Source: Arcobacter caeni
GTDB taxonomy: Bacteria > Campylobacterota > Campylobacteria > Campylobacterales > Arcobacteraceae
Length of the DNA stretch: 64,000 nt
NCBI RefSeq assembly: GCF_003063245.1
Contig: NZ_MUXE01000014.1
Span: forward strand, 1 to 64,000
Direction: 5' to 3'
Shown here: positions 7,071 through 45,549 of the stretch, piece after piece
Layout of the letters: each line of letters begins with the position of its first letter
Numbering within the stretch: position 1 is the stretch's first letter
The notes under the pieces: generated by a model
Told to the model about the DNA's origin: nothing
What the model saw: the letters and a program-made list of their open reading frames with translations, nothing else
The model's database searches: none
Program-made: the position numbers and the translations under genes

Positions 7071-8123
7071 TTATTTTTTGTAAAATTCTCTATACCAAAT
7101 AAGAAACTGCTCAATTCCACTGGAGAGTTTAGTATTTGGTTTGTATTCAAAATCATTAATTAAATCACTAGTATCGGCATAAGTTGATACTACATCACCA
7201 TCTTGCATAGAAAGGAAGTTTTTCTTAGCTTTTATTCCAATTGATTTTTCTAGTGTTTCTATGAATTCCATTAAACTAACAGGTGCATTATTTCCAATAT
7301 TATATATTCTATATGGTGCAGAAGAAATTGATGGATTTGGATTTGATGCATCAAAGTTTTTATTTGCTTTTGCTGGATTATCTATTACTTTTATAATACC
7401 ATCTACAATATCAGCTATATAAGTAAAATCTCTACTCATATTTCCATGATTAAATACTTTTATATCTCTATCATTTAATATTGCATCTGCAAAAAGCATT
7501 GGAGCCATATCAGGACGTCCATAAGGTCCATAAACAGTAAAAAATCTTAATCCTGTTGTAGAGATATTATAAAGATGACTATATGTATGTGCCATCATTT
7601 CATTTGATTTTTTAGTAGCAGCATAAAGTGATACGGGATGATCTGTATGATCAGATATTTTAAAAGGTTGTGATTTATTTAATCCATATACAGAAGAACT
7701 GGAAGCATAAGATAGATTTGATACATTATTATGCCTACAAGCTTCTAGGATATTCATAAATCCTTTTATATTTGAATCTATATAGGCATGGGGATTTTCT
7801 ATAGAATATCGTACTCCTGCTTGTGCGGCAAGGTTACAAACTGCATCAAAATTTTCATTTTTAAAAAGATTATATATAGAGTTTGTATCTGCCAAATCTA
7901 TTTTTATAAATTTGTGATTTGAGTAAGTTTTAGAATTTATTAATTTATTATCTTCTAATTCATTTTTATCAATACCCAATTTATTTAATCTTGCGTATTT
8001 TAAATTTACATTATAATAGTCATTTATATTATCAAGTCCTATTACTGTATCACCTCTTTTGAGAAGTTTAAGTGCTAGGTGATAAGCTATAAATCCTGCT
8101 GTTCCTGTTACTAGTATTTTCAT
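7071..8123 (-). CDS. NAD-dependent epimerase, probable UDP-glucuronate 4-epimerase
   Basis: A 350-aa extended short-chain dehydrogenase (GalE superfamily). The Rossmann motif GTAGFIAYH begins at Gly7 and the catalytic pair is in YAATK. The motif set ([33 protein letters not shown]) is that of UDP-GlcA 4-epimerases such as LpsL, which make UDP-galacturonate. Its start overlaps the ugd stop by four bases (ATGA), so the two are translationally coupled; Ugd would supply the UDP-GlcA substrate. This is the last gene of the 38-kb glycan block. Confidence 0.85.
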
Positions 8124-9292
8124 CTACTATCACTATTAAATATATCACGAGTATATATTTTTTCTAGTACATCTTTTAAATCTTGAGATACTCTATTTGC
8201 TACTATAACATCTGAAATTTTTTTAAATTCTTTTAAATCTTTGATTACTCTTGAATTAAAAAATTCATCTTCTTTTAGTACAGGTTCATATACTACAACT
8301 TCTATCCCTTTTGATTTAATTCTTTTCATTATTCCTTGTATTGCCGAACTTCTAAAGTTATCACTTCCTTCTTTCATAATAAGTCTATAAATACCAACTA
8401 TTCTTGGTTTTTTTGCAATAATACTATCAGCTATAAAATCTTTTCTTGTACTATTTGATTTGATTATTGCTTCAATTAGATTACTTGGAACTTTTGAGTA
8501 GTTTGCTAAAAGTTGTTTTGTATCTTTTGGTAAACAGTATCCACCATATCCAAAAGATGGGTTATTATAATGACTTCCAATTCGCGGATCTAAACCAACA
8601 CCTTCTATAATTTGTTGAGTATCTAAATCATGCGTTTGTGCATAAGAATCAAGTTCATTAAAATATGCAACTCTCATAGCTAGGTATGTATTTGAAAATA
8701 GTTTTACAGCTTCTGCTTCTGTACTATCTGTAAAAAGTATGGAAATATCTTTTTTAATAGCACCTTGAGCTAATAAATTTGCAAAAATTTTTGCTCGTTC
8801 TGACTTTTCTCCTACTATTATTCTACTTGGATGAAGATTGTCAAATAGCGCTTTTCCTTCTCGTAAAAACTCTGGAGAAAATATAATATTTTGCGTATTA
8901 AATTTTTCTCTTAAACTTTTTGTATAACCTACTGGAATTGTAGATTTTATTACCATTACAGCATTTGGATTTATACTTAAAACATCTGATATTACATACT
9001 CAATAGTTTTTGTATTAAAATAGTTTGTTACAGGATCATAATCAGTTGGAGTTGCAATAATTATAAAATCTGCATCTTTATAAGCTTCATTTTTATCTAA
9101 TGTTGCTTTAAAATTTAAATCATCTCTTAAAAGATACTCTTGTATTTCTTTATCTTCTATTGGTGATTTTTTGTTATTTATCATTTCCACTTTTTCAGGA
9201 ATTATATCAAGAGCTATTACTTCATTGTGTAAAGAAAGTAACAATCCATTTGATAGTCCTACATACCCTGTTCCTGCTATTGCTATTTTCAT
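8120..9292 (-). CDS. ugd: UDP-glucose 6-dehydrogenase
   Basis: A 390-aa cytoplasmic enzyme oxidising UDP-glucose to UDP-glucuronate with two NAD+. It begins with the dinucleotide-binding [10 protein letters not shown]. The catalytic Cys253 lies in [10 protein letters not shown], and the family segments [10 protein letters not shown] and [12 protein letters not shown] are present. Length matches the short bacterial (E. coli-like) Ugd class. It lies four bases after galE and overlaps the next epimerase gene, so GalE, Ugd and the UDP-GlcA epimerase form a precursor module at the end of the locus. The second dehydrogenase in the locus (43209-44480) is of the different WbpA class. Confidence 0.95.
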
Positions 9293-15590: not shown

Positions 15591-17420
15591 CTAATCTTCC
15601 TTATAAAGTTTTGGAATAGAATTTACAGTTTTTATAACTTCTTCAAAATCCATGCCTAATGTATCCAAATACCATCTTATATTTTGATATCTTGGTTGAT
15701 TTTCATCAGCTACTAATTCAAGTGCTTTTTCTCTTGTTATTTGACCTTCTCTTATTTGATTACTTCTAAAAGTGTCATGTTCTGTAAATCCTGCAACAGT
15801 ATAATAGACATAATTATAAAATCCTGCCGTCCCATCACCTATACGCCAAGTTGTACTTGTATCTATTGCTGTTTCCCAATTATATTGATTTATTAAAGTA
15901 TTATTTAATATATCTTCTTCCCAAGTCCAATAATCAAATATATGATAGTAATCTTCTTTTTGCATAAAACTTCTATAATATTCTCCAGATAATGTATCCC
16001 ATAGTGAGCTATTAAAATAGCCTGGACTTTCACACATAGCTTTAAATCGTTTACTATGGTATCTTAATTGTTTCATCACACCATTTGAATATACTTTATC
16101 TTCTTCAAAATCAGGTTTAATTCCTAAAAATCCTGTTTTAAAATGAGTTTGTTCTAGTGGATTTACTCCCCAAAGATTTAGTTTTATTCCCGTTTGTTTT
16201 TTAATCTCTTCTACATATCTAAAAAAGTGCTTATCTCCAGCTGTTAGCATTGCCATCATCCCAAGATGTGGTGATTTTAACCATGCTTGCAAATTCATCT
16301 TAATATTTTTTCTTTTTTGTGAAATATCAGCTGCAACAATAATATTTTCAACTCCCATATCACCACACATTTGGCTTATATTTCTTCTTCCTAAGTCTGT
16401 AACCATTCCCCAATCATAAGTATATGTTACAGGTTTCATTTCTAATTCTTTTACGATTAAGTGTAATCCATAGCAACTATCGCGACCACCAGAAAAAGGA
16501 ACTATACAATCTAATTCTTTTCCCGGTCTTCTATAAGGTTCCACAAGTTTAAAAAGCTCAGCTTTTGGTTTTGGCTTATTTCTTTTTTTATAATTATTAC
16601 AATAATTACAAACACCTTTATCATCAAATCTAATAAATGGCATCGTCTCAGGTAAAATACACTTTGTACATCTTTTAAGATCTATTTGTTTAAACTTTAA
16701 TAATTTTTCTTCATTTTGATTAAATTTAAATTCAGGGATTAAATCTTCTGTACGATTTTTTATATCATTTAAATTAACCTCCGTATCTGTTATAGGAATA
16801 TCTAGTATTAAACTATCTTCTTTGATTTGCTTAATATTTTGACAATTTATAACTTCTAAAGAGTACCTTTCTGATGCAAAATAAAGATCTTCGCCTATAT
16901 ATCCAACATATAAACTTCCATTATTTGAAAACAAAAGTAACTTTCCATATTCAGGTAATACCAAGGCACATGAAACTACACCTCTACAAATTGTTAATAT
17001 TTTATTTGCAAGTTCTGATATGTCTTCACTATTTATTAAATGCTCTTCTGCTATAGCAACTATTGCTTCTGAATCTATTTGATATTGTCGTTTAACAGTT
17101 AGTTTTTCCCAAACTTTTTTTTCATTTACTATTATTCCATTATGTATTGCAAAGATATTTTTTCTAATAACTGGTTGATTATCACCTAAACCATTAGTAA
17201 TTAATCTACTATGTCCAAGTACTACATTGCAATCATAAGGTTTAACTTTGTTGAGTAGCTTTTCTATATTATAATCAGCTCTTGCAATATTGTATTTGTC
17301 ATTTTTAAAATATATTAATCCGCTAGAATCAATCCCTCTTTGCTCAGAGTGCTTAACTAATTTATTAAAATTTTCTTTATTTATTGTATTTTTTGATATT
17401 TGTCCAAATATTCCACACAT
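15591..17420 (-). CDS. Fused class II glutaminase plus N-acetyl-sugar amidotransferase (WbpG/PseA-like)
   Basis: 609 aa, two modules. Residues 1-210 form a class II (Ntn) glutamine amidotransferase with catalytic Cys2 (MCGIFG) and the HNG segment (93-95). Residues about 245-600 form a WbpG/PseA-like ATP-pyrophosphatase: zinc-type pairs CTKC (251-254) and CNYC (271-274), then the PP-loop PFSGGRDS (308-315). The protein should hydrolyse glutamine and pass ammonia to an adenylated sugar amide or carboxylate within one chain. In known WbpG systems ammonia comes from separate HisH/HisF proteins, which this locus also encodes for its other WbpG. The substrate is not predictable; a uronate or an N-acetyl group is likely. 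Confidence 0.85.
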   Translation of the reverse strand: MCGIFGQISKNTINKENFNKLVKHSEQRGIDSSGLIYFKNDKYNIARADYNIEKLLNKVKPYDCNVVLGHSRLITNGLGDNQPVIRKNIFAIHNGIIVNEKKVWEKLTVKRQYQIDSEAIVAIAEEHLINSEDISELANKILTICRGVVSCALVLPEYGKLLLFSNNGSLYVGYIGEDLYFASERYSLEVINCQNIKQIKEDSLILDIPITDTEVNLNDIKNRTEDLIPEFKFNQNEEKLLKFKQIDLKRCTKCILPETMPFIRFDDKGVCNYCNNYKKRNKPKPKAELFKLVEPYRRPGKELDCIVPFSGGRDSCYGLHLIVKELEMKPVTYTYDWGMVTDLGRRNISQMCGDMGVENIIVAADISQKRKNIKMNLQAWLKSPHLGMMAMLTAGDKHFFRYVEEIKKQTGIKLNLWGVNPLEQTHFKTGFLGIKPDFEEDKVYSNGVMKQLRYHSKRFKAMCESPGYFNSSLWDTLSGEYYRSFMQKEDYYHIFDYWTWEEDILNNTLINQYNWETAIDTSTTWRIGDGTAGFYNYVYYTVAGFTEHDTFRSNQIREGQITREKALELVADENQPRYQNIRWYLDTLGMDFEEVIKTVNSIPKLYKED

Positions 17421-18584: not shown

Positions 18585-19921
18585 ATTTTTTTTTTCTTAT
18601 CTTGTAATATAAATGTTGGAAAAATCAATCCGAGCAAGAACCATAATGGAATCCAGCTTAGATGAACTCCAGCAATAGCAATTGCAAAAATACCTAAAAA
18701 CAAACAAAATAAATACAACTTAATTATCTTGTTTTCAATAAAATTTTGTTTAATATCAAAAAACTCTTTAATCGCAAAATATAAATATATAAAAAATAAA
18801 CTAAAACCAACTACTCCTAGGTGCGTTAATAATGAACCAACAAAACTATGTACATAAGTTCCATCCCCTGTGGTCAATCTATCCACTGCCATATTTCCAA
18901 AAATAGGACTATAATTAAAGTGTGTGCTAAAATTTTTCCATAATTCTATTCTTGAACTAACTGAACTAAGTTCTTGTGCTCCAAAGCCAAAAATCCTAAA
19001 CCTTGATAAGTTCATATCAAAGATTGAAATAGTACCAATAAAAGTAAAAATCGAAAGAACAACAACAATCCCTATAGAAATCATCAACAATAAAGCATTT
19101 TTATTAAACACAATATTCCTTAAAATAATTTTATTATTTAGTATAAATCTATCTATTTTAAAATAATGTATATACACAATAAAAACTAGTGTCAAAAACA
19201 ACATTCCCATTAATGTTACTGTAGCATTATTTGAAGCTATCATCTGTGATAGCAATATTGAGCCGATATTGCTTATCAGATATACTATTGTCATCACGAC
19301 TATAAGTACTTTGTGCTCATTCTTATACTTATTGTTTAACACAAGAAATAATATGTACAAAGGAGAATACATCAAAAAAGATATAGTTAAAAATGTTCCC
19401 GGTCTTTGGTAGTTACCATTTAATGTTGTAATTAAAAATAAATTTTGGGATAAAGATGCTGATAAAACATAATAACTATTTAAGAAGATTAATAAAAAGA
19501 AAAAAGAAAAAAGAAAAAAGAAAATATTAAATATCTTTAAATTATCTTTTTTTTGAAGTACTGCATTTTTTATAATCACTAAATGAAAAGACACAATTGC
19601 ACCTAAAAAATAAAATAAAACTATACCACCTGTTGTTCCTATTGTAAATACTTTTAAAAAATAAAAATTTTCCATATCAACAACTATTCTATATACAAAA
19701 TATGATACAAAAACAATAAGAAAAATAAATGATTTTCTAAAAAACATTCTTTTACTACTAAAAAGCTCATAAATTATAAAAAAACTGCCTAATAGTAAAA
19801 ATGCTCCTAAAAATAGCAATCCACTAGAACCTTCATTGATATTTTTGATATTTGAGAAAAAATAAAAAACAATACAAGTTAATGCTACTAAAAATAAATA
19901 CATTTTATTTCTTTCAACCAT
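18581..19921 (-). CDS. wzy: O-antigen/oligosaccharide repeat unit polymerase (Wzy-like)
   Basis: A very hydrophobic protein of 446 aa with about ten to eleven membrane helices and one larger periplasmic loop near residues 310-350, the usual Wzy layout. Wzy joins undecaprenyl-linked repeat units in the periplasm. The frame stays open to an ATG at 19975, but the ATG at 19919-19921 has AAAGGAA seven bases upstream and overlaps wzx by only eight bases, so I use it. The coding strand contains a perfect 7-base tandem repeat (19499-19524) and an A10 tract at the stop codon. Wzy proteins share little sequence; identification rests on topology and on neighbouring wzx. Confidence 0.8.
   Translation of the reverse strand: MVERNKMYLFLVALTCIVFYFFSNIKNINEGSSGLLFLGAFLLLGSFFIIYELFSSKRMFFRKSFIFLIVFVSYFVYRIVVDMENFYFLKVFTIGTTGGIVLFYFLGAIVSFHLVIIKNAVLQKKDNLKIFNIFFFLFSFFFLLIFLNSYYVLSASLSQNLFLITTLNGNYQRPGTFLTISFLMYSPLYILFLVLNNKYKNEHKVLIVVMTIVYLISNIGSILLSQMIASNNATVTLMGMLFLTLVFIVYIHYFKIDRFILNNKIILRNIVFNKNALLLMISIGIVVVLSIFTFIGTISIFDMNLSRFRIFGFGAQELSSVSSRIELWKNFSTHFNYSPIFGNMAVDRLTTGDGTYVHSFVGSLLTHLGVVGFSLFFIYLYFAIKEFFDIKQNFIENKIIKLYLFCLFLGIFAIAIAGVHLSWIPLWFLLGLIFPTFILQDKKKKI
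19499..19524. repeat. Heptanucleotide tandem repeat inside wzy
   Basis: Three perfect GAAAAAA units (19499-19519) plus a partial fourth (19520-19524) read on the plus strand. On the coding strand they encode a Phe/Leu-rich membrane segment. Because the unit is 7 bases, gain or loss of one copy would shift the wzy frame. Confidence 0.85.
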
Positions 19922-21185
19922 GACTAATTCCTTTAAAAAAACCTGCAATTCTAAATGATACAAGAAGCTGTACAATATAAAAAAATGAAAATGAAAATGA
20001 CAAATATATCACTACATCTTTTGCAGTTGCACCTACTAAAAAAGAAAAAATCACTAAAACGACTAATATTGCTTGCGTATAAAAATTGACTTCTTGTTTT
20101 TCACCTATATAAAGCATTACACCTAAAGGTCCTGCAATAAACTGCAAAAATAACATTGGTGTAAGTATCTGTGCATAAACACCAGCTTCTTTCCATTCTT
20201 CTCCAAAAACAAATATGAAAATATCAACGGCATAATAACAAAAAAATATTGAAGGAATAACTATTAACATAAATAACTTCTTAAAAGTACTTAAAAATAT
20301 CTCCCTAGCATGCCCAAACTGCTTATACTCTTTGGCTGCTTGCTCTTGAAATACTGACAAAACAGCTGATGACAAAACAGACACAGGAATACCTAAGATT
20401 CTTTGTGTCAAATAAAAGTATCCCGCGATAGTTGCACTAAACATAATGTTAAAAAACATATGAATAAGTTGATGAGAAGAGACATTGAACAATGAAGCAG
20501 GAATATCAATTTTAGGGAATTTTTTATATCGTTTTAAGAATACAAGCAATTGAATTTTACTAATATTTTTAAATACTATATTGTCTTCTTTAAACACTTT
20601 TAAAACTAAAAAAACAGTAGCAACAAATTGTCCTAATATCTGTCCTACAACAAGTCCAACACTAGAAAATCCACTTATTCCCATTACTAGGTTTGTACTT
20701 GACACGGTTCCACTTTGAAGGATTCTATTGTTTGCCAAAACTTTATATCTTTTTTTTCTATTTACCCAGTAATTTAAACTTTGATATACGCCATTGAGAA
20801 AGACAGCTAATGGTACAAAGTACAACCAAAAAGAGATTTCAGGATTTCCTAAAATTTTAGTAAGAGAACTATTAAAAAGTACAACAATAAACAATAATAT
20901 TAAACTCGTAATTGTTGTGATAATAGAAGACAAAGCTAACACAACCTTAGCATCTTTATCTTTCTTAGGAAGCAATATAGCAAACTCATATCTGCCAGTC
21001 GCAATAACGGACAATATAGTTACAACCGCAATAAACAATGCAAATATACCAAAATTTTCTGGAGTATAAACCCGCGTAAGAATTGGCGTAATAGCTATTG
21101 GAATAGCTTGCGCAATTGTTGTCCCTGTCATCAAAGTAAGTACATTTTTACTGAATTCTGATTTTAATTTAAATATTTTTAACAT
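19914..21185 (-). CDS. wzx: Oligosaccharide flippase (Wzx, MATE-like PST family)
   Basis: A 423-aa protein with twelve to thirteen hydrophobic segments. The start (SEFSKNVLTLMTGTTIAQAIPIA) followed by PILTRVYTPENFGIFALF is the signature of polysaccharide transporters of the O-antigen flippase family. It moves undecaprenyl-pyrophosphate-linked repeat units across the inner membrane. It neighbours wzy with an eight-base overlap, which makes a matched flippase/polymerase pair. A second flippase (29093-30511) is only distantly similar. Confidence 0.9.
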   Translation of the reverse strand: MLKIFKLKSEFSKNVLTLMTGTTIAQAIPIAITPILTRVYTPENFGIFALFIAVVTILSVIATGRYEFAILLPKKDKDAKVVLALSSIITTITSLILLFIVVLFNSSLTKILGNPEISFWLYFVPLAVFLNGVYQSLNYWVNRKKRYKVLANNRILQSGTVSSTNLVMGISGFSSVGLVVGQILGQFVATVFLVLKVFKEDNIVFKNISKIQLLVFLKRYKKFPKIDIPASLFNVSSHQLIHMFFNIMFSATIAGYFYLTQRILGIPVSVLSSAVLSVFQEQAAKEYKQFGHAREIFLSTFKKLFMLIVIPSIFFCYYAVDIFIFVFGEEWKEAGVYAQILTPMLFLQFIAGPLGVMLYIGEKQEVNFYTQAILVVLVIFSFLVGATAKDVVIYLSFSFSFFYIVQLLVSFRIAGFFKGISHG

Positions 21186-22459
21186 TTATATAAATACTCA
21201 ATTAATTCTTTTATAATATTTTCACTAGCTTTTCCACCACCATACAAATCTAATTTTGAATTTTCTACATTAAAATATGAGTGATTTTTATAAGTTTTTA
21301 GTATCTTCTCTTTATCAGCCCCAACCAAAGTATTAGCTCCACACTCTACAAGTTCTACCCACTCAGTCTCATCTCTTAGCGTTATGCACTGTTTTTCAAA
21401 GAAATATGCTTCTTTTTGAAGTCCACCACTATCTGTCATTATTAAACTACAATTATCTATTAGCCATACCATTTCAAGATAACCTACGGGATCTATTAAA
21501 GTTAAGTTTTTTATATTTATTTTCAAAGTTTCAACTATCTTTTTTGTTCTTGGGTGAAGTGGTAAAATTACTTGTTTTTCTTTTGCTATTTCATTTAATG
21601 CTTCAAAAATACTTTTTAATCTAATCTCATCATCTGTATTTTCAGCTCTATGTATTGTACAAAGTATAAAACTATTTTTTATCTCCATATTTGGTTTTAC
21701 TGCTAGATTTTTATAAAATATCGCTCCATCTTGCATTACATCACCTGATTTTACTATTTTACAATCTAAATTTGCATAGCCTTCATTTTCAAGATTTCGG
21801 ATTGCTGTATCCGTAGGACAAAATAAAATATCACTAACTCTATCTGTGAGTATTCTATTTACTTCTTCTGGCATTTTCATATTAAACGATCTTAAGCCTG
21901 CTTCTATATGTGCTAGTTTTATATGAAGTTTAGAAGCTACAATTGCACCCGCAAGTGTAGAGTTTGTATCTCCATATACCATGACCCAATCAGGCTTAAC
22001 TTTTAGACAAACTTCTTCTATCTTTTCTATCATCTGTCCCGTCATAGCACCATGAGATTTTCCACCTATTCCTAAAAAATAGTTTGGCTTTGGTATTTTC
22101 ATCTCATCAAAAAATATATCACTCATAGTCTCTATAATCATAAGTGTTGCTTGAGTAGCTTTTGTGCTTTTTAGTACGGTAGCTAGCATATACAGCCCTT
22201 TTTCTGTAAATACTTTTGGATTTGTTCTAGTCTTTGCAAACTTTGCGGTGGAAAATTTCCCCCGCAAATATTCAAACTCTTGATTGCTTACTTCATACAT
22301 ATATCCATTTGGAAACTTTTCTGGATTATTTTTTACAGCTTTGTTTATATCTCTAGTTTCAACTCCATAAATTTCAGCCACATCTTTATCTACAATTATT
22401 TTTTGTCCGTTTAATTCAACAATTAATTCTTTTATTTCTTCAATTTTTATGATATTCAT
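21179..22459 (-). CDS. Chimera: ORF6N domain fused to N-terminally truncated WbpI-type UDP-sugar 2-epimerase
   Basis: 426 aa. Residues about 10-110 are an ORF6N domain, a phage antirepressor-type DNA-binding module ([20 protein letters not shown], then [15 protein letters not shown]). From about residue 112 ([15 protein letters not shown]) the protein becomes a WecB/WbpI-type non-hydrolysing epimerase: [34 protein letters not shown]. Intact enzymes start with a Rossmann strand and a GTRPE/GARPQ loop that binds the nucleotide; about 45 residues including that loop are missing. The gene is tightly embedded, its ATG overlapping the upstream stop by four bases. WbpI would make the manno isomer from the WbpA/B/E/D product. 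Activity is doubtful. It could be a recombination scar, a functional fusion or an assembly artefact. Confidence 0.85.
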
Positions 22460-23568
22460 TGTATCAATCCATTATAAACTTCAAATAATTTCTTTTCTTC
22501 AAATCCCCAATTGTACTTTTCTAAAACGGTATTTTTACCATTTTGCCCCATAAGTTGTGCTTCTTGTGGATGAGAAATAATATACTCTATTGCTTGGGCT
22601 ATCTCTTTTGGTTCAAGTGGGTTTACGCAAATACCACAATTTGCATCATCAATTATTTCTTTCCAGAGTTTTATATCTGAAGATATTACAGGAAGTCCTG
22701 CTGCCATATATTCGAACATCTTTACTGGTAATGCATCTAAATAATTTATTATTGGATGAAGAGTTACAAGACCTGCTTTTGATTGACTCATCACATTTAC
22801 AATGCCAACTCTATCTAAAAATCCAAGTTCATTTACATATTTCCAACCATCGTATGTTTTTACTTCCTCTTCTACATTCTTTTCACTAAATGCACCTACA
22901 AGATTAAGTTTTGTATTTGATGTAAACTCCATAGCTTTTACTATTTCTTTTATGCCTCTTATCTGTGCAATTCCACCGACATAACAAACTTCATCTTTTT
23001 TTTCATTCCAAGGTGTTTCGTTTGAAAGTTCTCCTAATATTGGGAAGTTATTTATATCTATACTATTTTTATTTATTTTTAGAAATTTATCTTTTATGTA
23101 CGGTGTTGCGGTAACAATGTAATCAAACTTTGGCATGGCATATTTTTCATATAGCTCAAAAGTTTTTGATAATAATACTTTTGTAAATTTATTTAAATAT
23201 GGTTTTCCAAGAAGCTGTTTTGGTAAATCTTCATGTGCATCAAATATCACAATTTTTCCAAGTTTTTTTAGTTTTAATCCAACAGGAATAAGTTCAGGGT
23301 CATGAAGATGATATATGTCACTGTTCAGACCAACTGCTTTTTCAAATATCTTTTTTACAGTGGTAGTCATACGAGATAATCGACCACCAGTTTTTACACC
23401 AACATCTACTATACTTACACTATTTTTAGTTTCATTACCTTTTCCATCTGCTACTATTAAACTAACTTTATAGTTTTCATTTGTAGATAAAGAGCTACAC
23501 ATTTTTAAAAAAATTCTTGTATCGTATCTGCCATGTGCTGATGTTAGATGAGTTATTTTAGTTTGCAT
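22456..23568 (-). CDS. Glycosyltransferase, GT4-type
   Basis: A 370-aa GT-B glycosyltransferase. Features are [14 protein letters not shown] at the N-terminus, [14 protein letters not shown] in the acceptor half and, in the donor half, [17 protein letters not shown] and [18 protein letters not shown], the last containing the EX7E-like acidic region. Sugar specificity cannot be read. Stop and start codons overlap both neighbours by one to four bases. It directly follows the HisF-like gene and precedes the epimerase chimera, so it may transfer the amidinated uronate these genes make. Confidence 0.88.
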
Positions 23569-24335
23569 TATTTATTTCCTAATAATTCTTGAATCTTTTC
23601 ATATGATGGATAACTTATGAGTACACCTTTTAGTGCTCCTTGATATACAAACATACTTCCACATGCAACTGCATCCACATTAGCTAGTTCAAAAACTTCT
23701 TTTATATGATTTAAGTTTCCAGAACCACCAAGTGCTATGATAGGTACTTTAGTATTTGATTTTATTTCTTTTAAAAGTTCATAATCAAATCCTTGCATTA
23801 CTCCATCATTATCACAAGAGTTTATCACTATTTCCCCTGCACCCAAAATTTCTACTTGCTTTACAAATTCAAGTGGATCAAGTTTTGTATTCTTTTTACC
23901 ATTATTTATAAAAACTTTTTTCTTTCCCCAAAAGTCTTTTTTAATATCTATTGTTACAATTACTGATTGATTACCAAAGATACTTGCTGCATCTTTTATC
24001 AACAGAGGATTTAGGATAGATTGACAACTTATAGAAATTTTTTCAACTCCTAAGGAATATATTTTTTTCATTTGCTCTACTGTTTTTACTCCACCACCAT
24101 AACAAAGGGGCATAAAACATTCACTTGCTATATCTTCTATCATTTTATAATTTGGCTCTTTATTTTGAACACTTGCATCTATATCTAAAAACATCAATTC
24201 ATCAACTTCTTTTTCATTGAAAATTTTTATTGCATTTATAGGATCACCTATATAAGTTGGTTTTTTAAATCTTTCAGTTTTATAAAGTCCACCTTTGTGT
24301 AAAAGTAGACATGGAATTATTCTTTTTTGTAGCAT
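23568..24335 (-). CDS. HisF-like cyclase subunit for sugar amidation (WbuZ/HisF2)
   Basis: A 255-aa TIM barrel of the HisF family ([64 protein letters not shown]). In histidine synthesis HisF takes ammonia from HisH. Here it lies between a HisH homologue and a WbpG-like amidotransferase in a glycan operon, the same trio as Pseudomonas WbpG/HisH2/HisF2. It should therefore channel ammonia for acetamidino-sugar formation rather than make imidazole glycerol phosphate. A true his operon is not in the window. Confidence 0.9.
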
Positions 24336-24940
24336 TACATTTCTCCAAAATTTTTAAAAAGTTGCATACCAAATTTATGACTTTTTTCAGGATGAAACTG
24401 TACACCATATATATTATCTTTATAGATACTGCAAGTAAATTTTTTTCCATAAGTTGCTGTTGCTAAGATATTCTTTTCATCATTACAAACAACATGATAT
24501 GAATGAACAAAATAAAACCTATTTTCTTCTAAATTATGATAAATATCTTTTATATTACTAGGGTTGGTTTTATTCCATCCCATGTGGGGAATAGATAAAT
24601 TTTTATCCTCTAAATCAAATTTTACAGTTTGAGCATCTATCCAACCAAGACCTTTTTCTTTTCCTTCTTCACTTGAGTTAGTTAGAAGTTGCATACCAAG
24701 ACAAATACCCAAGATTGGTTTTTTATTTTGTAATACTTCTTTTTCTAAAGTTTCGAAAAAAGCTGCCTTCTTTAGGCCATTAATTCCATGATCAAAAGAA
24801 CCAACTCCAGGAAGAAGATATTTATCTGCTTTTTTTATTTCTTCTATATCTGATGTTATCACCGATTCAATGCCAACTTTTTTGAACATATTATAAATTG
24901 ATTTTAAATTACCTATTCCATAATCAAGTATCGCTATCAT
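24335..24940 (-). CDS. HisH-like class I glutaminase for sugar amidation (WbuY/HisH2)
   Basis: A 201-aa class I (triad) glutamine amidotransferase. The nucleophile is Cys80 in GICLGMQL; the triad His and Glu lie in GVQFHPEKS near the C-terminus. It hydrolyses glutamine and passes ammonia to the HisF-like partner encoded one base downstream. The WbpG-like gene lies nine bases upstream. All three catalytic residues are present. Confidence 0.92.
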   Translation of the reverse strand: MIAILDYGIGNLKSIYNMFKKVGIESVITSDIEEIKKADKYLLPGVGSFDHGINGLKKAAFFETLEKEVLQNKKPILGICLGMQLLTNSSEEGKEKGLGWIDAQTVKFDLEDKNLSIPHMGWNKTNPSNIKDIYHNLEENRFYFVHSYHVVCNDEKNILATATYGKKFTCSIYKDNIYGVQFHPEKSHKFGMQLFKNFGEM

Positions 24941-24948
24941 TTTCTACC

Positions 24949-26094
24949 TTATGAATAATTTGATATTTTTCTACCAAGTAACTTTGATACAAGGTTTTGA
25001 ATTCTTTTCATTTTTTTGTATTTATCAGTCATATTTGGAAAATCGCTATAATCATGTGATGGCAGTTGAAGTATTTCTTCAAATTCTTTATCACTAACTC
25101 CTAATTTTTTAGCTATATATTCTTTATCATCTTTAAGTTCTTTTTCATCATATAAAGGTTTTTCTAACTCTTTTTGTGCTTCATCTCTAGTCATTTGCCC
25201 TGCAACTATTAGACTTGCTAAATGTGGTTTTCTTTTATCATAACCAAACTTCATAGGTAACCAATAATTTTGATAAAATTTAGTAAATACAGATTCGCCA
25301 TGTTTTCTAGCATACTCTTTATAACCTACTTTTTCTTTTAATTCTTCTAATGCTTCACTTTTAATATACGGCATGAAATTAAGTGGTCTTATAGTCTTCA
25401 TTTTTTTAACAAAAGGATAATATAAATAAAGTTCATAAAAACCTATAGTCTTATAATTTTTAAGTTTTTTAGTACCAAATGCATTGTGAATAGCATGTAA
25501 ATTATCAGCATCCATCGCACTCCATAACCAAGATTTTGGAAATATAGATTCAGTAGCTAAATTCCCTCCACTTATCACATAATTTACACCATGCTTTGTA
25601 GCAAAATGATAGAGTGAAGAGAAATATGCATGATCTTGAGGAACATCTTGATTTGCAATAGCTGATTTTAAATATGCTAATTGTAAATCTTTCATCTCTT
25701 CCCAATCTACAACAATAGTGTGTAAATCCCAACCACAATATTTTACAAGATTTTCAATATTTTGAACAGCAAGTTCACTATTCCATCCACCATCTACATG
25801 CACAACCAAAGGACGGATACCTTCTTCGTAAAGTTTAAGTGCAAGATATGAACTATCTACTCCACCACTAAGTCCCAAAATACAGTCATATTGTTTTGAA
25901 GCATTTTCTTTTTTCATTTTTGAATATATAGTTTCTAGTTTTTTTGTACCTTCTATATTTGGATACCATCTTTTTGACGTAACTTCATCAAATTCTATAC
26001 AATGACTGCAAACTCCATTTTCATCAAAAGTTATTTCTGGGTCTGTTGTGTCCATTACACATTTTGTACACATTTGATAGTTTTTATTTTGCAT
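24949..26094 (-). CDS. wbpG: N-acetyl-sugar amidotransferase (WbpG/PseA family)
   Basis: 381 aa. CTKC (9-12) and CSHC near residue 30 form a zinc-finger-like site. The ATP-pyrophosphatase loop is GLSGGVDSS (74-82). This family activates the acetamido group of a sugar with ATP and lets ammonia replace the oxygen, giving an acetamidino group. The adjacent HisH/HisF pair supplies ammonia. In Pseudomonas the trio acts on a 2,3-diacetamido mannuronic acid. A longer frame opens at 26115, but the ATG at 26092-26094 has AAAGG seven bases before it, so I take that start. Confidence 0.9.
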   Translation of the reverse strand: MQNKNYQMCTKCVMDTTDPEITFDENGVCSHCIEFDEVTSKRWYPNIEGTKKLETIYSKMKKENASKQYDCILGLSGGVDSSYLALKLYEEGIRPLVVHVDGGWNSELAVQNIENLVKYCGWDLHTIVVDWEEMKDLQLAYLKSAIANQDVPQDHAYFSSLYHFATKHGVNYVISGGNLATESIFPKSWLWSAMDADNLHAIHNAFGTKKLKNYKTIGFYELYLYYPFVKKMKTIRPLNFMPYIKSEALEELKEKVGYKEYARKHGESVFTKFYQNYWLPMKFGYDKRKPHLASLIVAGQMTRDEAQKELEKPLYDEKELKDDKEYIAKKLGVSDKEFEEILQLPSHDYSDFPNMTDKYKKMKRIQNLVSKLLGRKISNYS

Positions 26095-27226
26095 CCAATA
26101 TCCTTTTATATTCATTTATCATTTTTACCTCTTGTTTTTCCCATGAATTTTCTTCTGCACATTTTCTTGCGTTTAATTTCATTTGTTCTATGTCTAGCGT
26201 TAAAATTTTATCTATCGCCTGATTTATAGACTCAATAGTTTCTTCCTCTGCTATTATTCCAATATCATACTTTTGCACTAATTCTTTCATCTCTTTCATA
26301 TTTGAGACTATCACAGGAAGTCCAGCCATAGAATATTCAAAAAGTTTATTTGGTAAACAATAATAGTAACTCAAGCAAGTATTTTCAATAAACGAAATCC
26401 CAATATCAGCAGAAGAAGTATAGTTTAAAACTACCTCAGGAGCAACGGCAGGATGAAAAAAAATATTGTTTGCTTTTTCACTTGACTTTTTTATATCCTC
26501 TTCAAACTCACCATAACCCATAAAGACTATTACTACTTTATCATCCACTCTTGATTTAAAACTTTCTAGTAGCAAATCAACGCCTCTCCCTTTTGAAAGC
26601 CCTCCTTGATAAAGTACTATTATAGATTCTTCTTTTATATCTAAATTTTTTCGAAATATATTTGTCTTTTTTAGCTCATTTAATTTGGGGGCATTTAGTA
26701 TGACTTCCGGTCGGCTTATATTATAAGTATCTCTATACCAATCAGCTATATTTTCACTTACAACAAAAATCAAATCAGCTTTTTTAATAAGCATTTTTTC
26801 CAAAAATTTAGATATCTTTTTTCTAACCCTACCAGAACCATTGGTTTCTGTCTCTAATTCATGAGTATCATACACAAGTTTTGCACCATAAAAATATTTT
26901 AGTAGTATACCTAAAGGTAAAAGTGCAAGTGCATGGATATTTACTATTTTGATATTTTTCTTTCTATAAAAAAAAGTAACTCTATATATAAATTCTAAAT
27001 ATTTTAATATCTGTACTATAAAATTTTTGCTCAAATTTCTACTGCTGAGTTTAAATCTTTTTAATAATAAATTTTCACTATACTTGTATTCTTCTTCTAA
27101 ATCATCTGCATATAAAGAAGCTATGTAAACTTTTGATGCAATATTATAATTTAAAATAGAATTTGTTTCTTTCAAAACTCTACTTTCGTTTCTCATCTCT
27201 GTGAGTGATATGTGAAGGTTATTCAT
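26084..27226 (-). CDS. Glycosyltransferase, GT4-type
   Basis: A 380-aa GT-B glycosyltransferase, closely related in motif layout to the gene at 17424-18584: LVYDTHELETETNG, LFVVSENIADWY, LYQGGLSKGRGVDLL, FMGYGEFEEDI, DIGISFIENTCLSYYYCLPN and KLFEYSMAGLPVIVSN. It lies just downstream of asnB after a 56-base gap, the largest gap in the cluster, where a possible internal promoter lies. Its 3' end overlaps the wbpG start by eleven bases. Confidence 0.88.
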   Translation of the reverse strand: MNNLHISLTEMRNESRVLKETNSILNYNIASKVYIASLYADDLEEEYKYSENLLLKRFKLSSRNLSKNFIVQILKYLEFIYRVTFFYRKKNIKIVNIHALALLPLGILLKYFYGAKLVYDTHELETETNGSGRVRKKISKFLEKMLIKKADLIFVVSENIADWYRDTYNISRPEVILNAPKLNELKKTNIFRKNLDIKEESIIVLYQGGLSKGRGVDLLLESFKSRVDDKVVIVFMGYGEFEEDIKKSSEKANNIFFHPAVAPEVVLNYTSSADIGISFIENTCLSYYYCLPNKLFEYSMAGLPVIVSNMKEMKELVQKYDIGIIAEEETIESINQAIDKILTLDIEQMKLNARKCAEENSWEKQEVKMINEYKRILDAK

Positions 27227-39091: not shown

Positions 39092-40081
39092 CTACTTATT
39101 CATTTTTTCATCAGCAGATTCTAGTATCTTTTGAAGTCTTATAGCTTGAGTTGGGTTAGAGATAGATTGTTTATTTTCTAAAATACATTCTCTAAAATGG
39201 TTAATACTATTATACAAAGCATCTTCTTGTTTGATATAAGGTATCCAAACATCTCCATCCCTTGTTTTTACAACATAGTCATCATACTCTATATCGTCTC
39301 CCGATACTACATTCACACCTTTATCATAAACCATAAGTTTTTCAGCTGTTTTCATATCATCGAAAACTACCATTTTTTTATTACCTGCAACTATAAGCTT
39401 TCTCTCTTTAAGTGGAGAAATCCAACTAGACTGAATATGTGAAATAAACCCCTCATATCTAAGAGTCAAAAAACATAAACTTTCTTTTGGATTATAATAT
39501 TTTTCACCAACAGAGTTTATATAAAATGGCTCTTTACCATCCATAAGACAATCAATGATAGCAAGATCATGAACTGCTAAATCCCACATAGCACTTACAT
39601 CTTTTTTTATTTGTCCAAGGTTCATTCTCATAGCATCTATAAAAAGTATGTCTCCTAACTCTTCATTTTGTATAAGTTCTTTTATTTTTCTAATTACTGG
39701 GTGAAATATCATAATATGATCAACATGAATGATAAGATTTAACTCTTGTGCTAACTCTTGTAGTTCTTCAGCTTCTTTTACTGTCGATGTAAATGGTTTT
39801 TCTACATATACATGTTTTCCGGCAAATAGTGCTTCTTTTACAAGATTGTAATGTCCACTTGTCTCAACCGCAACTGCAATAGCTTGAATATCTTTATTTT
39901 GAAGAAGTTTTTTATAATCAGACTCATAAGTAGTTTGCTCAATATATACACTTCTTGCTTTTTCAAGTCTATCCTCTTTATAGTCACAAATTGAATATAA
40001 ATTTAACTCTTTATTAGCATGAATATTTTTAGCTACATTTGGTCCCCAGTATCCAAAACCAATGAGCCCTATATTAATCAT
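39092..40081 (-). CDS. Gfo/Idh/MocA-family sugar oxidoreductase
   Basis: A 329-aa protein. The N-terminal Rossmann domain starts IGLIGFGYWGPNVAKN, with the catalytic lysine motif VEKPFTS (near residue 95) and the HVDHIMIFHP and WDLAVHDLAIIDC segments of the C-terminal domain. The family includes UDP-sugar 3-dehydrogenases such as WlbA/WbpB. A different WbpB-like gene is also present at 42239. This copy pairs with the hexapeptide acyltransferase encoded immediately upstream and probably oxidises a sugar ahead of transamination by the 37047 enzyme. Confidence 0.85.
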   Translation of the reverse strand: MINIGLIGFGYWGPNVAKNIHANKELNLYSICDYKEDRLEKARSVYIEQTTYESDYKKLLQNKDIQAIAVAVETSGHYNLVKEALFAGKHVYVEKPFTSTVKEAEELQELAQELNLIIHVDHIMIFHPVIRKIKELIQNEELGDILFIDAMRMNLGQIKKDVSAMWDLAVHDLAIIDCLMDGKEPFYINSVGEKYYNPKESLCFLTLRYEGFISHIQSSWISPLKERKLIVAGNKKMVVFDDMKTAEKLMVYDKGVNVVSGDDIEYDDYVVKTRDGDVWIPYIKQEDALYNSINHFRECILENKQSISNPTQAIRLQKILESADEKMNK

Positions 40082-40580
40082 TTGGATTTCCTTCTATCTT
40101 GTTACCCATTTTGTCAACATAGCTATAATGCTTTGCAGGATTTCCCTTAACTAAACTATAAGCTTCCACATCTTTGGTCACAACACTTCCCGCAGCAACC
40201 ATACAATATTCTCCAAGTGTTATACCACATACTATTGTTGCATTAGCACCAATACTTACCCCTTTTTTAACAAAAGTCGGTGTTATCTTCCATTCTGTAT
40301 CAAATGCTCTTGGAACTTTATCATTTGTAAAACAAGCATTTGGACCTACAAATACTTCATCTCCTATAGTTACCCCATGATATATTGAAACACTATTCTG
40401 AATTTTGCAGTTATTTCCAATTTTGACTTCAGCATCTATATATGTATCTTTTGAAATGATACAGTTTGTTCCTATATTACTTTTTTCTCTTATTTGAGAA
40501 TTTATCCAAATTTTTGTTCCATCACCTATTTTTGCTTCTGCTGACACATTTGCTGAGGGATGAATATAAATATTAGCCAT
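40074..40580 (-). CDS. Hexapeptide-repeat sugar N-acyltransferase
   Basis: A 168-aa left-handed beta-helix protein with repeats such as IHPSANVSAEAKIGDGTKIW and the motif [18 protein letters not shown]. It is similar in layout to WbpD/WlbB, FdtC and QdtC, which acylate 3-amino sugars with acetyl-CoA. The longer paralogue at 41658-42239 is probably the WbpD proper, so this one likely serves the second amino-sugar branch. Start and stop overlap its neighbours by eight bases. Confidence 0.88.
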   Translation of the reverse strand: MANIYIHPSANVSAEAKIGDGTKIWINSQIREKSNIGTNCIISKDTYIDAEVKIGNNCKIQNSVSIYHGVTIGDEVFVGPNACFTNDKVPRAFDTEWKITPTFVKKGVSIGANATIVCGITLGEYCMVAAGSVVTKDVEAYSLVKGNPAKHYSYVDKMGNKIEGNPND

Positions 40581-41658
40581 TTACAATCTCGATAACATAG
40601 TCTTGTTCATCATCTTTTAAAAATGCAGACATAGGTAAAGCCATAATATCTAATGATACTTTTTCGGTAATAGGAAAATCACCATTTTTATATCCAAGAT
40701 AAGTAAATACCTCTTGAAGATGTAGAGGCAATGGGTAATAAATAGCAGTTGGAACACCTTTATCATTACATTTTTTAATCATTTCATCTCTATTTGACAC
40801 TTTTATACAGTACTGTGCCCATGCTGAAACTAAATTATTTTCCACAAAAGGTACAATTACATTTTTTAGATTTTGAGAATATTTTTGTGCAATTTTTTGT
40901 CTTTTATCTAATTCTTCTTTAAAATATTTTAATTTAACATTTAAAACACCTGCTTGAATTGTATCAATTCTTCCATTCATCCCAATATGACTATGAAAAT
41001 ATTTAGAAGATTGACCATGATTTAAAATTACTCTCATTTTTTTAGCTAATTCATCATCATTTGTAAATATTGCTCCACCATCTCCATAACATCCAAGAGG
41101 TTTTGCCGGGAAAAATGAAGTTGTAGCAATATCTGATAAATTACAAGATTTTTTATTTTTATATGTTGCTCCAAAACTTTGAGCAGCATCTTCTATAACT
41201 TTGAGATTATACTTTTTAGCTATTTTATTAATAGCATCCATGTCAGAAGTTTGACCAAAAATCGATACAGGCATAATAGCTTTTGTTTTTGAAGTAATTT
41301 TTTCTTCTATTTTAGTTGGATCTAAATTGTAAGTTTTTTCATCAATATCTACAAATACAGGAGTAGCACCAACAAATGCTATCATTTCAGCTGTTGCTAT
41401 AAAAGTAAATGGAGAAGTAATTACTTCATCTCCAGCTTTTATATCAAATGCCATTAAAGCTAATAAAAGAGCATCTGTTCCACTACTACAAGCTATAGAA
41501 TGTTTACATCCAACAAATTTTGATAAATTTTCTTCTAGTTCCGCTACTTTTGAACCCATTATATAAGAAGAAGTATTCAAAACATCATGTATTTGCTCAT
41601 CTATTTCTTGTTTATAAGCTTGGTATTGAGCTTGTAAATCTATAAAGTTTATTTTCAT
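40573..41658 (-). CDS. wbpE: UDP-3-keto-sugar aminotransferase (WbpE/WlbC-like)
   Basis: A 361-aa DegT-family enzyme. SSGTDALLLALMAF binds PLP phosphate, VIEDAAQSFGATYK holds the Asp, and the PLP lysine lies in FFPAKPLGCYGDGG. The opening INFIDLQAQYQAYKQEID is the classic WbpE/WlbC start. WbpE aminates C3 of UDP-2-acetamido-3-keto-glucuronate, made by WbpA and WbpB. The order wbpA-wbpB-wbpD-wbpE, with overlaps of one base, matches this pathway well. Confidence 0.92.
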   Translation of the reverse strand: MKINFIDLQAQYQAYKQEIDEQIHDVLNTSSYIMGSKVAELEENLSKFVGCKHSIACSSGTDALLLALMAFDIKAGDEVITSPFTFIATAEMIAFVGATPVFVDIDEKTYNLDPTKIEEKITSKTKAIMPVSIFGQTSDMDAINKIAKKYNLKVIEDAAQSFGATYKNKKSCNLSDIATTSFFPAKPLGCYGDGGAIFTNDDELAKKMRVILNHGQSSKYFHSHIGMNGRIDTIQAGVLNVKLKYFKEELDKRQKIAQKYSQNLKNVIVPFVENNLVSAWAQYCIKVSNRDEMIKKCNDKGVPTAIYYPLPLHLQEVFTYLGYKNGDFPITEKVSLDIMALPMSAFLKDDEQDYVIEIVNG

Positions 41659-42239
41659 TATTTTCCTTCTATTAAAATTAAATTATCGTTTTCTATTTTA
41701 TATTTACTATTATCAAAACTATCTATTGCAATATCATTTTCATCAAACTTTAGTGTATTTCCAGCTTTTGATACCCAACCTATTTGCCGTGCAGGAACTC
41801 CAACCATAAGTGAGTATGGTTTCACATCTTTATTTACTACTGTTCCACTTCCAATAAGTGCATATTCTCCAATAGTAACTCCACATACTATAGTTGCATT
41901 TGCTCCAATAGAACAACCTTTTTTAAGAAGTGTTTGTTTAAACTCTTCTCTTCGTACTATAAAAGCTCTTGGATTTGTAACATTTGTAAAAACCATAGAA
42001 GGACCTAAAAAAACATCATCTTCTACAACAACACCTTCATAAATAGAAATATTGTTTTGAACCTTAACACCATTACCAATAGTTACCTTTGGTCCAACTA
42101 CACAGTTTTGTCCAAATGAACAGTTTGTTCCTATGTTTGAACCTGATAATATATGCGAAAAATGCCAAACCTTAGTATTATCACCTATCTTAACATTATC
42201 ATCTACAAATGAAGATTCATGTGCAAAAAAAGTAGCCAT
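41658..42239 (-). CDS. wbpD: UDP-3-amino-sugar N-acetyltransferase (WbpD/WlbB-like)
   Basis: A 193-aa hexapeptide-repeat acetyltransferase starting with [20 protein letters not shown], with [20 protein letters not shown] and the product-binding [11 protein letters not shown] near the end. WbpD/WlbB acetylates the 3-amino group of UDP-GlcNAc3NA to form UDP-2,3-diacetamido-glucuronate. It lies between wbpB and wbpE with one-base overlaps on each side. Confidence 0.93.
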
Positions 42240-43207
42240 TAAACTAGTACCTTTTTACAAAATGGATGATATTCTCCTTGAAGACCAAGAGGAGTGAGTT
42301 TTCTGATAACTGAAACAATATTTATAGAGTTTCTAGCTTCGTCTAAACCAAATCCACCACCATTTAAAATATGTTCATAAGATCTAGTATGTAAGTCTGT
42401 GAATCCTTCTGAGAACTCAAATTCTTCACCATCAACAGTGATACTTCTATAAGTTGTTTTTCCACTAGCTCTTATATTTTCGGGAATATAGTCGTAGTTT
42501 ACAGATAAAAACCATCTTACATTTGCATTTTTCAATTTCATAAATCCAGCATTTGCATCTGGATGTTTTAAATGAACTAGATTTTCTTCAATAGGTCCAA
42601 ATATCCAAGAAAGCATATCAAAGAAGTGAACTCCAATATTTGACGCAATTCCACCACTTTTTGCTTCATCACCTTTCCATGATACAAAGTACCATTTCCC
42701 TCTTGAAGTTAAGTATGTAAGATCTATATCATATACTTTAGAAGGATTTTGTTCTAACTCTTTTGCTATTTTATTTTTAAGAGCAATAATTGAATCATGA
42801 AGTCTTAGTTGTAAAATATTATAAACTTTTTTACCAGTTTCTTCTTCTATAACTTTTAATTGGTCAATATTATGTGGATTTAAAACTAAAGGTTTTTCAC
42901 AAATAGCATGAGCACCATTTTTAAGTGCAAACCTAATATGAGAATCATGTAAATAGTTTGGAGTTGTAATTCCAATATATTCTATTTTTTTATTTCCATC
43001 TCGATGCCATTTATCAACAAACCTATCAAATCTTTCAAATTCTGTAAAAAAATGAGCTTGAGGGAAATTACTATCCATAATTCCAATTCCATCATATGGA
43101 TCAAGAGCAGCAACTAAATCATTTCCTGTATCTTTTATAGCTTTCATATGTCGTGGAGCTATGTATCCTGAAGCACCTATTAGTGCGAAGTTTTTTTTAT
43201 TTGGCAT
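42239..43207 (-). CDS. wbpB: UDP-N-acetylglucosaminuronate 3-dehydrogenase (WbpB/WlbA-like)
   Basis: 322 aa, Gfo/Idh/MocA family. The start [20 protein letters not shown] is typical of WlbA/WbpB; the catalytic lysine is in CEKPLVLN and the conserved SKSGGI-type segment reads [19 protein letters not shown]. It oxidises C3 of UDP-GlcNAc-uronate with a tightly bound NAD recycled by 2-oxoglutarate. The frame opens at 43237, overlapping wbpA, but the ATG at 43205-43207 has GGAG eight bases upstream and follows the wbpA stop, so I chose it. Confidence 0.92.
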
Positions 43208-43208
43208 T

Positions 43209-44973: not shown

Positions 44974-45549
44974 TTGCAAAATAAAGAATACTCAGAAGAT
45001 GAGATTGATTTAAGAGAATTGTTTCAAACTATTTGGAATAGTAAAAAGTTTATTGTTATTTTTACATTTTTAATAACTCTATTATCTGTTATTTATGTTT
45101 TTTAAAAAAATCCAGTTCCAATATATAAAGGAAAAGTATTTGTCGAAATAGGTCAAATCCAAAGTCAAAATTTTGGTGAAAAGATTTTAGATACTCCTGC
45201 TAATTTAGCAGCAATTTTAAAATTAGAATTCAATATTAATACTTCAATACCAAAAGGTACAAATAGTTTATTGGAAATAAGTTCAAATAATATTAATAAT
45301 GAAACAATAAAAAATGATTTACAAAAGTCAGTAGAATTTATATTAAATAGACATAAAGAAAAAGCAAATTTTTATGAAAATACAATCATGTCAAAACAAA
45401 TCGGAGATATTGTAATAAATAATACACCTATTAATACTCTTAAAAAATCACTAATCGTAATTGTTGCTTTTGTAACTGGATTTATCTTGTCAATATTCTT
45501 AGTATTTTTTATGCAATTTATTTCAAGTATGAAAAAAACTCATCTTTAA
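44974..45549 (+). pseudogene. wzz: Broken Wzz-type chain length determinant (in-frame stop)
   Basis: In one frame from a TTG at 44974 the sequence reads a Wzz N-terminus (EDEIDLRELFQTIWNSKKF, then a membrane helix ending SVIYVF), a TAA at 45103-45105, then continues KNPVPIYKGKVFVEIGQ and ends with the Wzz-type proline-plus-helix (PINTLKKSLIVIVAFVTGFI). Frame is kept on both sides, so a single nonsense change broke it. The stop sits where a T6 run meets an A7 run; TTA in place of TAA would restore Leu. Even intact the protein (~191 aa) would be short for Wzz. Its 3' end overlaps hipA tail-to-tail by 27 bases. It lies divergent from the glycan block. Confidence 0.85.

Follow-up and report, generated by a model that had tools for sequence, protein, structure and literature searches.

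Does a polysaccharide locus of Arcobacter caeni encode a new kind of sugar enzyme, or has one of its pathway steps been broken? The question is raised by a gene in the first 64,000 nucleotides of contig NZ_MUXE01000014.1 (assembly GCF_003063245.1), the whole of which was analyzed and is called the window here. In this gene, an ORF6N domain stands in frame in front of a WbpI-like epimerase that lacks its own start. The best reading of the data is that of a recent loss-of-function chimera in a single lineage, not of a new enzyme class. More specifically, we consider it reasonably probable that this young, lineage-specific chimeric gene was formed by illegitimate recombination and inactivates the last step to UDP-ManNAc3NAcA.

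The gene occupies positions 21179-22459 on the minus strand and is one uninterrupted open reading frame (ORF) of 426 amino acids. In Pfam, PF10543 (ORF6N) matched residues 12-95 with 102.5 bits (cut-off 27.8; profile positions 2-86 of 86) and PF02350 (Epimerase_2) matched residues 110-419 with 327.1 bits (cut-off 30.6). The latter match begins at profile position 22 of 347, while in L007, an intact relative of 356 amino acids, it begins at position 2. The NCBIfam model TIGR00236 (wecB) reached 277.5 bits (cut-off 210.15). At these scores both domain matches are beyond chance. The parts of the gene are:

22130-22459, minus strand: ORF6N part, residues 1-110, corresponding to the first ~110 amino acids of a solo ORF6N gene (Pfam, 102.5 bits; 66% identity to the solo gene L071; end of DNA similarity)
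22124-22132, minus strand: ORF6N/wbpI junction, codons 110-112 (DNA alignments, at most ~1 bp shared)
21179-22126, minus strand: WbpI-type epimerase, from residue 45 of intact homologues to the C-terminus (PF02350, 327.1 bits; 87-88% identity to relatives)

The junction was mapped by DNA alignment of the fusion with four intact wbpI and four solo ORF6N genes. The similarity to wbpI begins at TATGAGTGAT and that to the solo ORF6N genes stops at ATAGAGACT. This places the join near 22126-22130, where the two parents share about 1 bp at the most. Counted on the translation, Met112 of the fusion is Met45 of the 356-amino-acid WbpI of the relative G003. The start codon of the fusion overlaps the stop codon of the upstream glycosyltransferase gene (22456-23568) as ATGA, and its 3' end overlaps the downstream wzx gene (19914-21185) by 7 bp. 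As the G+C content is nearly equal in the two halves (0.300 and 0.298), composition cannot tell them apart. A first-pass annotation, made from the DNA letters, had proposed an in-frame fusion of this kind, with the epimerase running from residue 112 where intact homologues are at about residue 45, with the nucleotide-binding loop lost and with operon coupling kept on both sides. All of these points are borne out, the loop by the residues described next.

When compared with 24 matched sequences of solved structures, residues 110-416 aligned best with 8sxv/8sxy of Thermus thermophilus (326 bits). The 8SXV series, UDP-2,3-diacetamido-2,3-dideoxy-glucuronic acid 2-epimerases, scored 324-326 bits versus 265 for the next relative. 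Among the matches listed, the closest intact WbpI proteins of relatives share 87-88% identity with the epimerase half, which is, by these sequence relationships, of the WbpI type. According to an excerpt of PMC10622841, the substrate is held in the T. thermophilus enzyme by Arg12, Gln14 and Lys17, and the activator UDP-N-acetylglucosamine (UDP-GlcNAc) by Gln40, His41 and Asp43, among other residues. Judged by motif and spacing, the equivalents of all these residues lie within residues 1-44 of intact homologues, the stretch with GARPQFIK and TGQHYD that is absent from the fusion. Both the N-terminal substrate loop and the named activator-site residues (T. thermophilus numbers) are thereby missing, and the first strand-helix-strand of the seven-stranded N-terminal domain is lost in sequence. 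The further ligand and active-site side chains that were checked, mapped by alignment to the T. thermophilus enzyme, are identical in the fusion in 13 of 13 cases (Asp98, Glu120, Glu132, His208, Arg209, His240, Arg242, Lys245, Ser284, Glu290, Arg302, Glu306 and Trp307), and the catalytic Asp164, Glu186, Glu198 and His270 are conserved. We infer that the fusion protein is unable to epimerise, in which case the pathway would stop at UDP-GlcNAc3NAcA.

The first-pass annotation had asked whether the ORF6N domain could complete the missing Rossmann strands. A structural model was built with a shallow alignment, in which 23 rows were ORF6N sequences and 3 were close epimerases. In blocks of ten residues, the mean predicted local distance difference test (pLDDT) score was 59-88 for residues 11-110 of the ORF6N domain and 73-95 for residues 251-390 of the C-terminal domain. 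For residues 121-250, the remaining part of the N-terminal domain, it was 30-49 with this shallow alignment. The last helix (residues 401-426), which in a WbpI-type enzyme returns to domain 1 (excerpt of PMC10622841), was also modeled with low confidence (36-41). Against solved epimerases, the whole model reached at best a query-normalized template modelling (TM) score of 0.44 and a root mean square deviation (rmsd) of 10.8 Å among the 50 matches listed. Without an alignment, the sequence alone gave an unusable model (mean pLDDT 39.5). Since the ORF6N and C-terminal domains appear folded in the model and residues 121-250 do not, ORF6N does not visibly replace the lost part. The model thus gives support, not proof, that the broken domain is not completed.

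Is the fusion the older or the younger state? G003 and G055 have the gene order of the window, HisH-HisF-glycosyltransferase-wbpI, with an intact wbpI, and the glycosyltransferase gene and wbpI are adjacent in G001, G093 and G340. The DNA of G003 shows this ATGA overlap too, before wbpI. For these comparisons the positions of the epimerases, not their identities, were used, and loci L010, L013, L015 and L016 were left out. No ORF6N was found in the matching regions of 14 relatives (E ≤ 1e-3). With an intact wbpI among the same neighbors in relatives, the fusion is, on gene order, the derived state, in which the normal start of wbpI would have been replaced. A normal WbpI in close relatives had been taken beforehand as a sign of an artefact. 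The relatives do carry it, but it marks the fusion as derived and not as artefactual.

The fusion was not found among the matches listed for 104 genomes of the family, which were ordered by score so that a fusion would be expected high. The same holds for the matches listed for 397 genomes of the class (up to four candidates per genome scored, E ≤ 1e-20) and for those from three further families, with 228, 175 and 44 genomes (E ≤ 1e-80 only); these genome sets overlap. It was likewise absent from 3 loci in viral contigs and, among the 536 loci confirmed in GTDB contigs, from the best 80. At least 80% of the query was covered by none of 23 matching phage records and by one of 281 matching plasmid records, a Haloarcula sequence (query 53-419) annotated as wecB and without ORF6N. 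No ORF6N was present either in two genome matches that reached to the left of the junction, G355 (query 38-424) and G347 (query 95-421), or in the longer open frame of G374. This check covered three matches, with weak extensions such as those in G244, G148, G297, G341, G432 and Priestia plasmids lying outside it. An ORF6N-epimerase protein was not found in the literature either (titles and abstract openings of papers listed from open-licence PubMed Central (PMC) text), and a match to 'ORF6N' plus 'epimerase' concerned an unrelated O7 ORF6 protein. The architecture, of which the first-pass annotation knew no described example, thus recurred in none of the genomes, phages, plasmids and viral contigs searched.

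Two other genomes of the same order carry interrupted epimerase sequences. In G347, a broken wbpI-like gene lies at 802-1797 of locus L191 (G347:C1:979000-981600), in pieces of 70, 61 and 58% identity that change frame and contain 9 stops, which shows that other members of the order can lose the WbpI step. In G346 (C17:16551-17252), an epimerase match of 46% identity contains 4 stops and may be another family member.

Where did the ORF6N half come from? Its closest relative among the best 80 of 536 GTDB loci is L071, a solo gene of 168 amino acids in an Arcobacteraceae metagenome-assembled genome, with 66% identity over residues 1-115. The neighbors of L071, a UDP-glucose dehydrogenase-like gene on one side and an epimerase-like gene on the other, both have counterparts at 7071-9292 of the window. 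Over 23 alignment rows, residues 1-110/115 of the fusion share 56-66% identity with the starts of solo ORF6N proteins, and the open frames (stop to stop) of the ORF6N loci in the best GTDB matches measure 151-220 codons in 20 of 21 cases and 25 codons in the other. As far as seen, this half appears closest in sequence to solo bacterial genes. The first-pass annotation had called the domain phage-type, a label that fits only in part. Phage anti-repressor profiles do match, if more weakly, but 20 of the 21 best GTDB loci have frames of solo size and the closest one stands beside sugar genes. The profile of PDC-S05, a candidate defence system under which PADLOC places such solo genes, matched with 166.6 bits at profile positions 3-116 of 183 only, the rest of the fusion being epimerase. 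In excerpts of two papers (PMC12988326 and PMC13356809), this label stands among defence systems. A solved relative of ORF6N was not found by sequence, the single match being at chance level (E 0.56).

A row of ORF6N genes is present elsewhere in the same genome (G000:C22:57995-60447, loci L002-L004). Two of them, of 287 and 288 amino acids, have alike C-terminal parts, and the third match lies in a short open frame. Their identity to the ORF6N part of the fusion does not exceed 54%. We also considered whether sugar loci regularly carry ORF6N. Two or more sugar-gene places were counted in 3 of 20 ORF6N regions versus 1 of 20 hand-picked controls, and in 3 of 21 GTDB ORF6N loci; one of these 21 loci coincides with one of the 20 regions, and two regions are shorter than the others. 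This is a weak signal without clear enrichment.

The first-pass annotation had left three outcomes for the epimerisation step: a crippled locus, a full WbpI copy elsewhere or a new role for the fusion. When the genome itself, a draft of 59 contigs scored as 99.98% complete, was searched with an intact WbpI, the fusion came up (matched from residue 48 of the query) and otherwise just two matches with E-values of 0.02 and 0.06. The only other Epimerase_2 protein found in the assembly scores 467 bits with NeuC (TIGR03568) versus 86 bits with WecB and follows a NeuB-family gene. We take this NeuC-like protein to belong to a route of the sialic- or legionaminic-acid type. A full copy elsewhere was therefore not found in the assembly, and for a new role there is no positive evidence, the fusion having been seen in no other genome searched. 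The crippled locus fits best, with the substrate and activator stretch lost and no second WbpI found in the assembly.

The setting of the fusion shows what such a loss would affect. Genes 7071-44480 of the window read as polysaccharide genes and not as phage or prophage genes, partly by family search and for the rest by eye. The relevant ones are:

19914-21185, minus strand: flippase-like wzx, 7-bp overlap with the fusion (NCBIfam matches below cut-off)
22456-23568, minus strand: glycosyltransferase, ATGA overlap with the fusion; its orthologue precedes wbpI in G003, G001, G055, G093 and G340
23568-26115, minus strand: trio of HisF (AglZ/HisF2), HisH and WbuX/WbpG-type amidotransferase (NCBIfam, above cut-offs)
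40573-41658, minus strand: WbpE-like, DegT-type aminotransferase (Pfam)
41658-42239, minus strand: WbpD-like hexapeptide transferase (Pfam)
42239-43237, minus strand: WbpB-like GFO/IDH/MocA oxidoreductase (Pfam)
43209-44480, minus strand: WbpA-like nucleotide-sugar dehydrogenase (NCBIfam)

Their order and the known pathway suggest that the genes at 40573-44480 are WbpE, WbpD, WbpB and WbpA, providing the steps to UDP-GlcNAc3NAcA, although none of the four had an NCBIfam equivalog match above cut-off. Counterparts of these genes lie upstream of wbpI in several relatives. In the Wbp pathway of Porphyromonas gingivalis, as described in an excerpt of PMC7468200, WbpA, WbpB, WbpE and WbpD are named as the route to UDP-GlcNAc3NAcA and to a linking sugar, a glucuronamide with unsettled ring positions. 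The same excerpt states that the place of WbpI is not known there and that the Tannerella forsythia epimerase is untested.

Further genes of the minus strand belong to this setting. Beside the WbpD- and WbpE-like genes lie a second GFO/IDH/MocA oxidoreductase (39092-40081) and a second hexapeptide transferase (40074-40580), a pair that may serve a second modified sugar of the locus. At 15591-17420, a 609-amino-acid protein combines an N-terminal glutamine amidotransferase domain with a WbuX-like part at its C-terminus, where the match of 145 bits does not reach the model's cut-off of 203. The protein is a second amidotransferase of the locus with its own glutaminase part, and a counterpart of 81% identity lies directly 3' of wbpI in G055. 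Just upstream of the polysaccharide cluster, at 45523-46788, a HipA-type protein is encoded (HipA_C 162 bits, Couple_hipA 50 bits).

How could the chimera have arisen, and with what effect? By illegitimate recombination in the polysaccharide locus, codons 1-44 of wbpI would have been exchanged, in frame, for the opening ~110 codons of a solo ORF6N gene. This may have taken two steps, with the arrival of a solo ORF6N gene behind the glycosyltransferase gene and ahead of wbpI followed by a deletion that fused ORF6N to wbpI, or one step, with an ORF6N piece directly replacing the wbpI start. The product would keep translation coupling and spare the downstream genes. C2 epimerisation would probably be lost and the WbpA/B/E/D route would end at UDP-GlcNAc3NAcA, which would accumulate or be used as such. 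The amidotransferase trio and a glycosyltransferase would then either take the gluco isomer, giving a changed surface glycan, or the residue would be missing. As the outcome depends on the specificity of these enzymes, it is not readable from sequence.

Several observations weigh against this account. The epimerase half is without decay, so that a loss of function needs to be a recent event. Compared with G003, its nonsynonymous rate (dN) is 0.087 and its synonymous rate (dS) 0.66, a dN/dS of 0.13, while neighboring genes have values of 0.12 (HisF), 0.09 (HisH), 0.15 (WbuX) and 0.18 (glycosyltransferase). The branch dN of the epimerase is just a little longer in the window than in G003, at 0.046 versus 0.041 with outgroup G055 and 0.055 versus 0.032 with outgroup G001, and HisF is tilted alike (0.057 versus 0.029). 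At 143 columns invariant in 19 relatives (residues 112-400; 84 in the N-terminal remnant and 59 in the C-terminal domain) the fusion has no change, the relatives themselves having 0-6 in a leave-one-out count. Either the gene worked until very recently, or it still works, or the join is an artefact. Furthermore, an in-frame join has a 1-in-3 chance in a random accident, and the start overlap was kept as well. An intermediate with ORF6N between the glycosyltransferase gene and wbpI was not found, as the 4 of 96 epimerase-match loci with ORF6N (flanks mostly 1.5-6 kb) are all the window's own. Nor are solo ORF6N genes clearly enriched near sugar genes (3 of 20 regions versus 1 of 20 controls). 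Finally, the low model confidence rests on 3 epimerase rows without a matched intact-protein control.

The undecayed half is what would be expected of an intact, real gene, and together with a draft of 59 contigs and a fusion unique among the genomes searched it speaks for an assembly or sample artefact, in which an ORF6N gene and a wbpI of different molecules were joined or a mixed population was collapsed. We regard this as unlikely. The two parents have at most about 1 bp in common at the join, the longest recurring word of the 120 bp around it is 15 bases within the 64-kb window, and no orphaned wbpI start was found in a genome of such completeness. An orphaned ORF6N end was not found either, aside from the ORF6N genes on C22, although this variable end could be missed. 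Moreover, the ORF overlaps with the genes on either side, relatives have the same upstream gene order, and it would take a coincidence for a false join to be open and in frame behind an ATGA start that looks native. If the gene is real, its unrelaxed constraint could also mean a working new enzyme, in which the lost contacts are provided by ORF6N or by a partner, or in which ORF6N ties the epimerase to DNA or brings it under regulation. The open frame, the operon coupling, the catalytic residues and the ordinary residues of the ORF6N half (one singular change in 24 invariant columns, versus 0-4 in the other 23 rows) agree with this. The loss of the Arg/Gln/Lys and Gln/His/Asp equivalents together with the first strand-helix-strand, the modeling of ORF6N as a separate domain with residues 121-250 not confidently folded, the poor match of the whole model to epimerases and the lack of recurrence in the genomes searched make it very unlikely. 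We give hardly any credence to a newborn functional two-domain protein, kept in frame under constraint, in which ORF6N tethers or regulates the 2-epimerase half and couples the surface sugar to DNA or phage sensing. The loss itself could have been selected under pressure from phages or a host, as one of several wbpI switch-offs that alter the surface sugar, for example by exchanging the manno for the gluco isomer. The broken gene in G347, the G346 match with its stops, the naming of only WbpA/B/E/D for the P. gingivalis glucuronamide sugar (excerpt of PMC7468200) and the otherwise open-looking pathway here fit this idea. However, a total of two broken genes in several hundred genomes is no demonstration of selection, and the G346 match may belong to another family member, so we find this quite unlikely.

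If real, the recent loss-of-function chimera captures clearly how polysaccharide loci are altered when they recombine illegitimately with small solo genes. The prediction that follows from it is a changed surface sugar, in which the gluco form takes the place of manno or one residue is absent. A working enzyme would challenge the view of the Arg/Lys loop as indispensable; nothing here supports that.

Compared with known systems, the fusion shares with solo ORF6N proteins (PF10543; PDC-S05) the first 110-115 residues, while it lacks their C-terminal ~60-90 residues and is joined to an enzyme instead. Profiles of phage anti-repressors match residues 5-117 (PHROG 4792 with 56.8 bits, six others weaker), whereas the fusion is flanked on both sides by polysaccharide genes and its ORF6N domain forms the N-terminus of a sugar enzyme. 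With the P. gingivalis Wbp pathway, the locus has its putative WbpA/B/E/D steps to UDP-GlcNAc3NAcA in common; there, the four-enzyme route is complete as named, while here an epimerase gene is present in a truncated and fused form. With WbpI-type epimerases (the T. thermophilus 8SXV series and WbpI of Pseudomonas aeruginosa), the fusion shares the match over residues 110-416, the 13 side chains and the pathway context. It differs in having an ORF6N domain in place of residues 1-44 of these enzymes, which contain the substrate loop and, at the activator site, Gln-His-Tyr-Asp.

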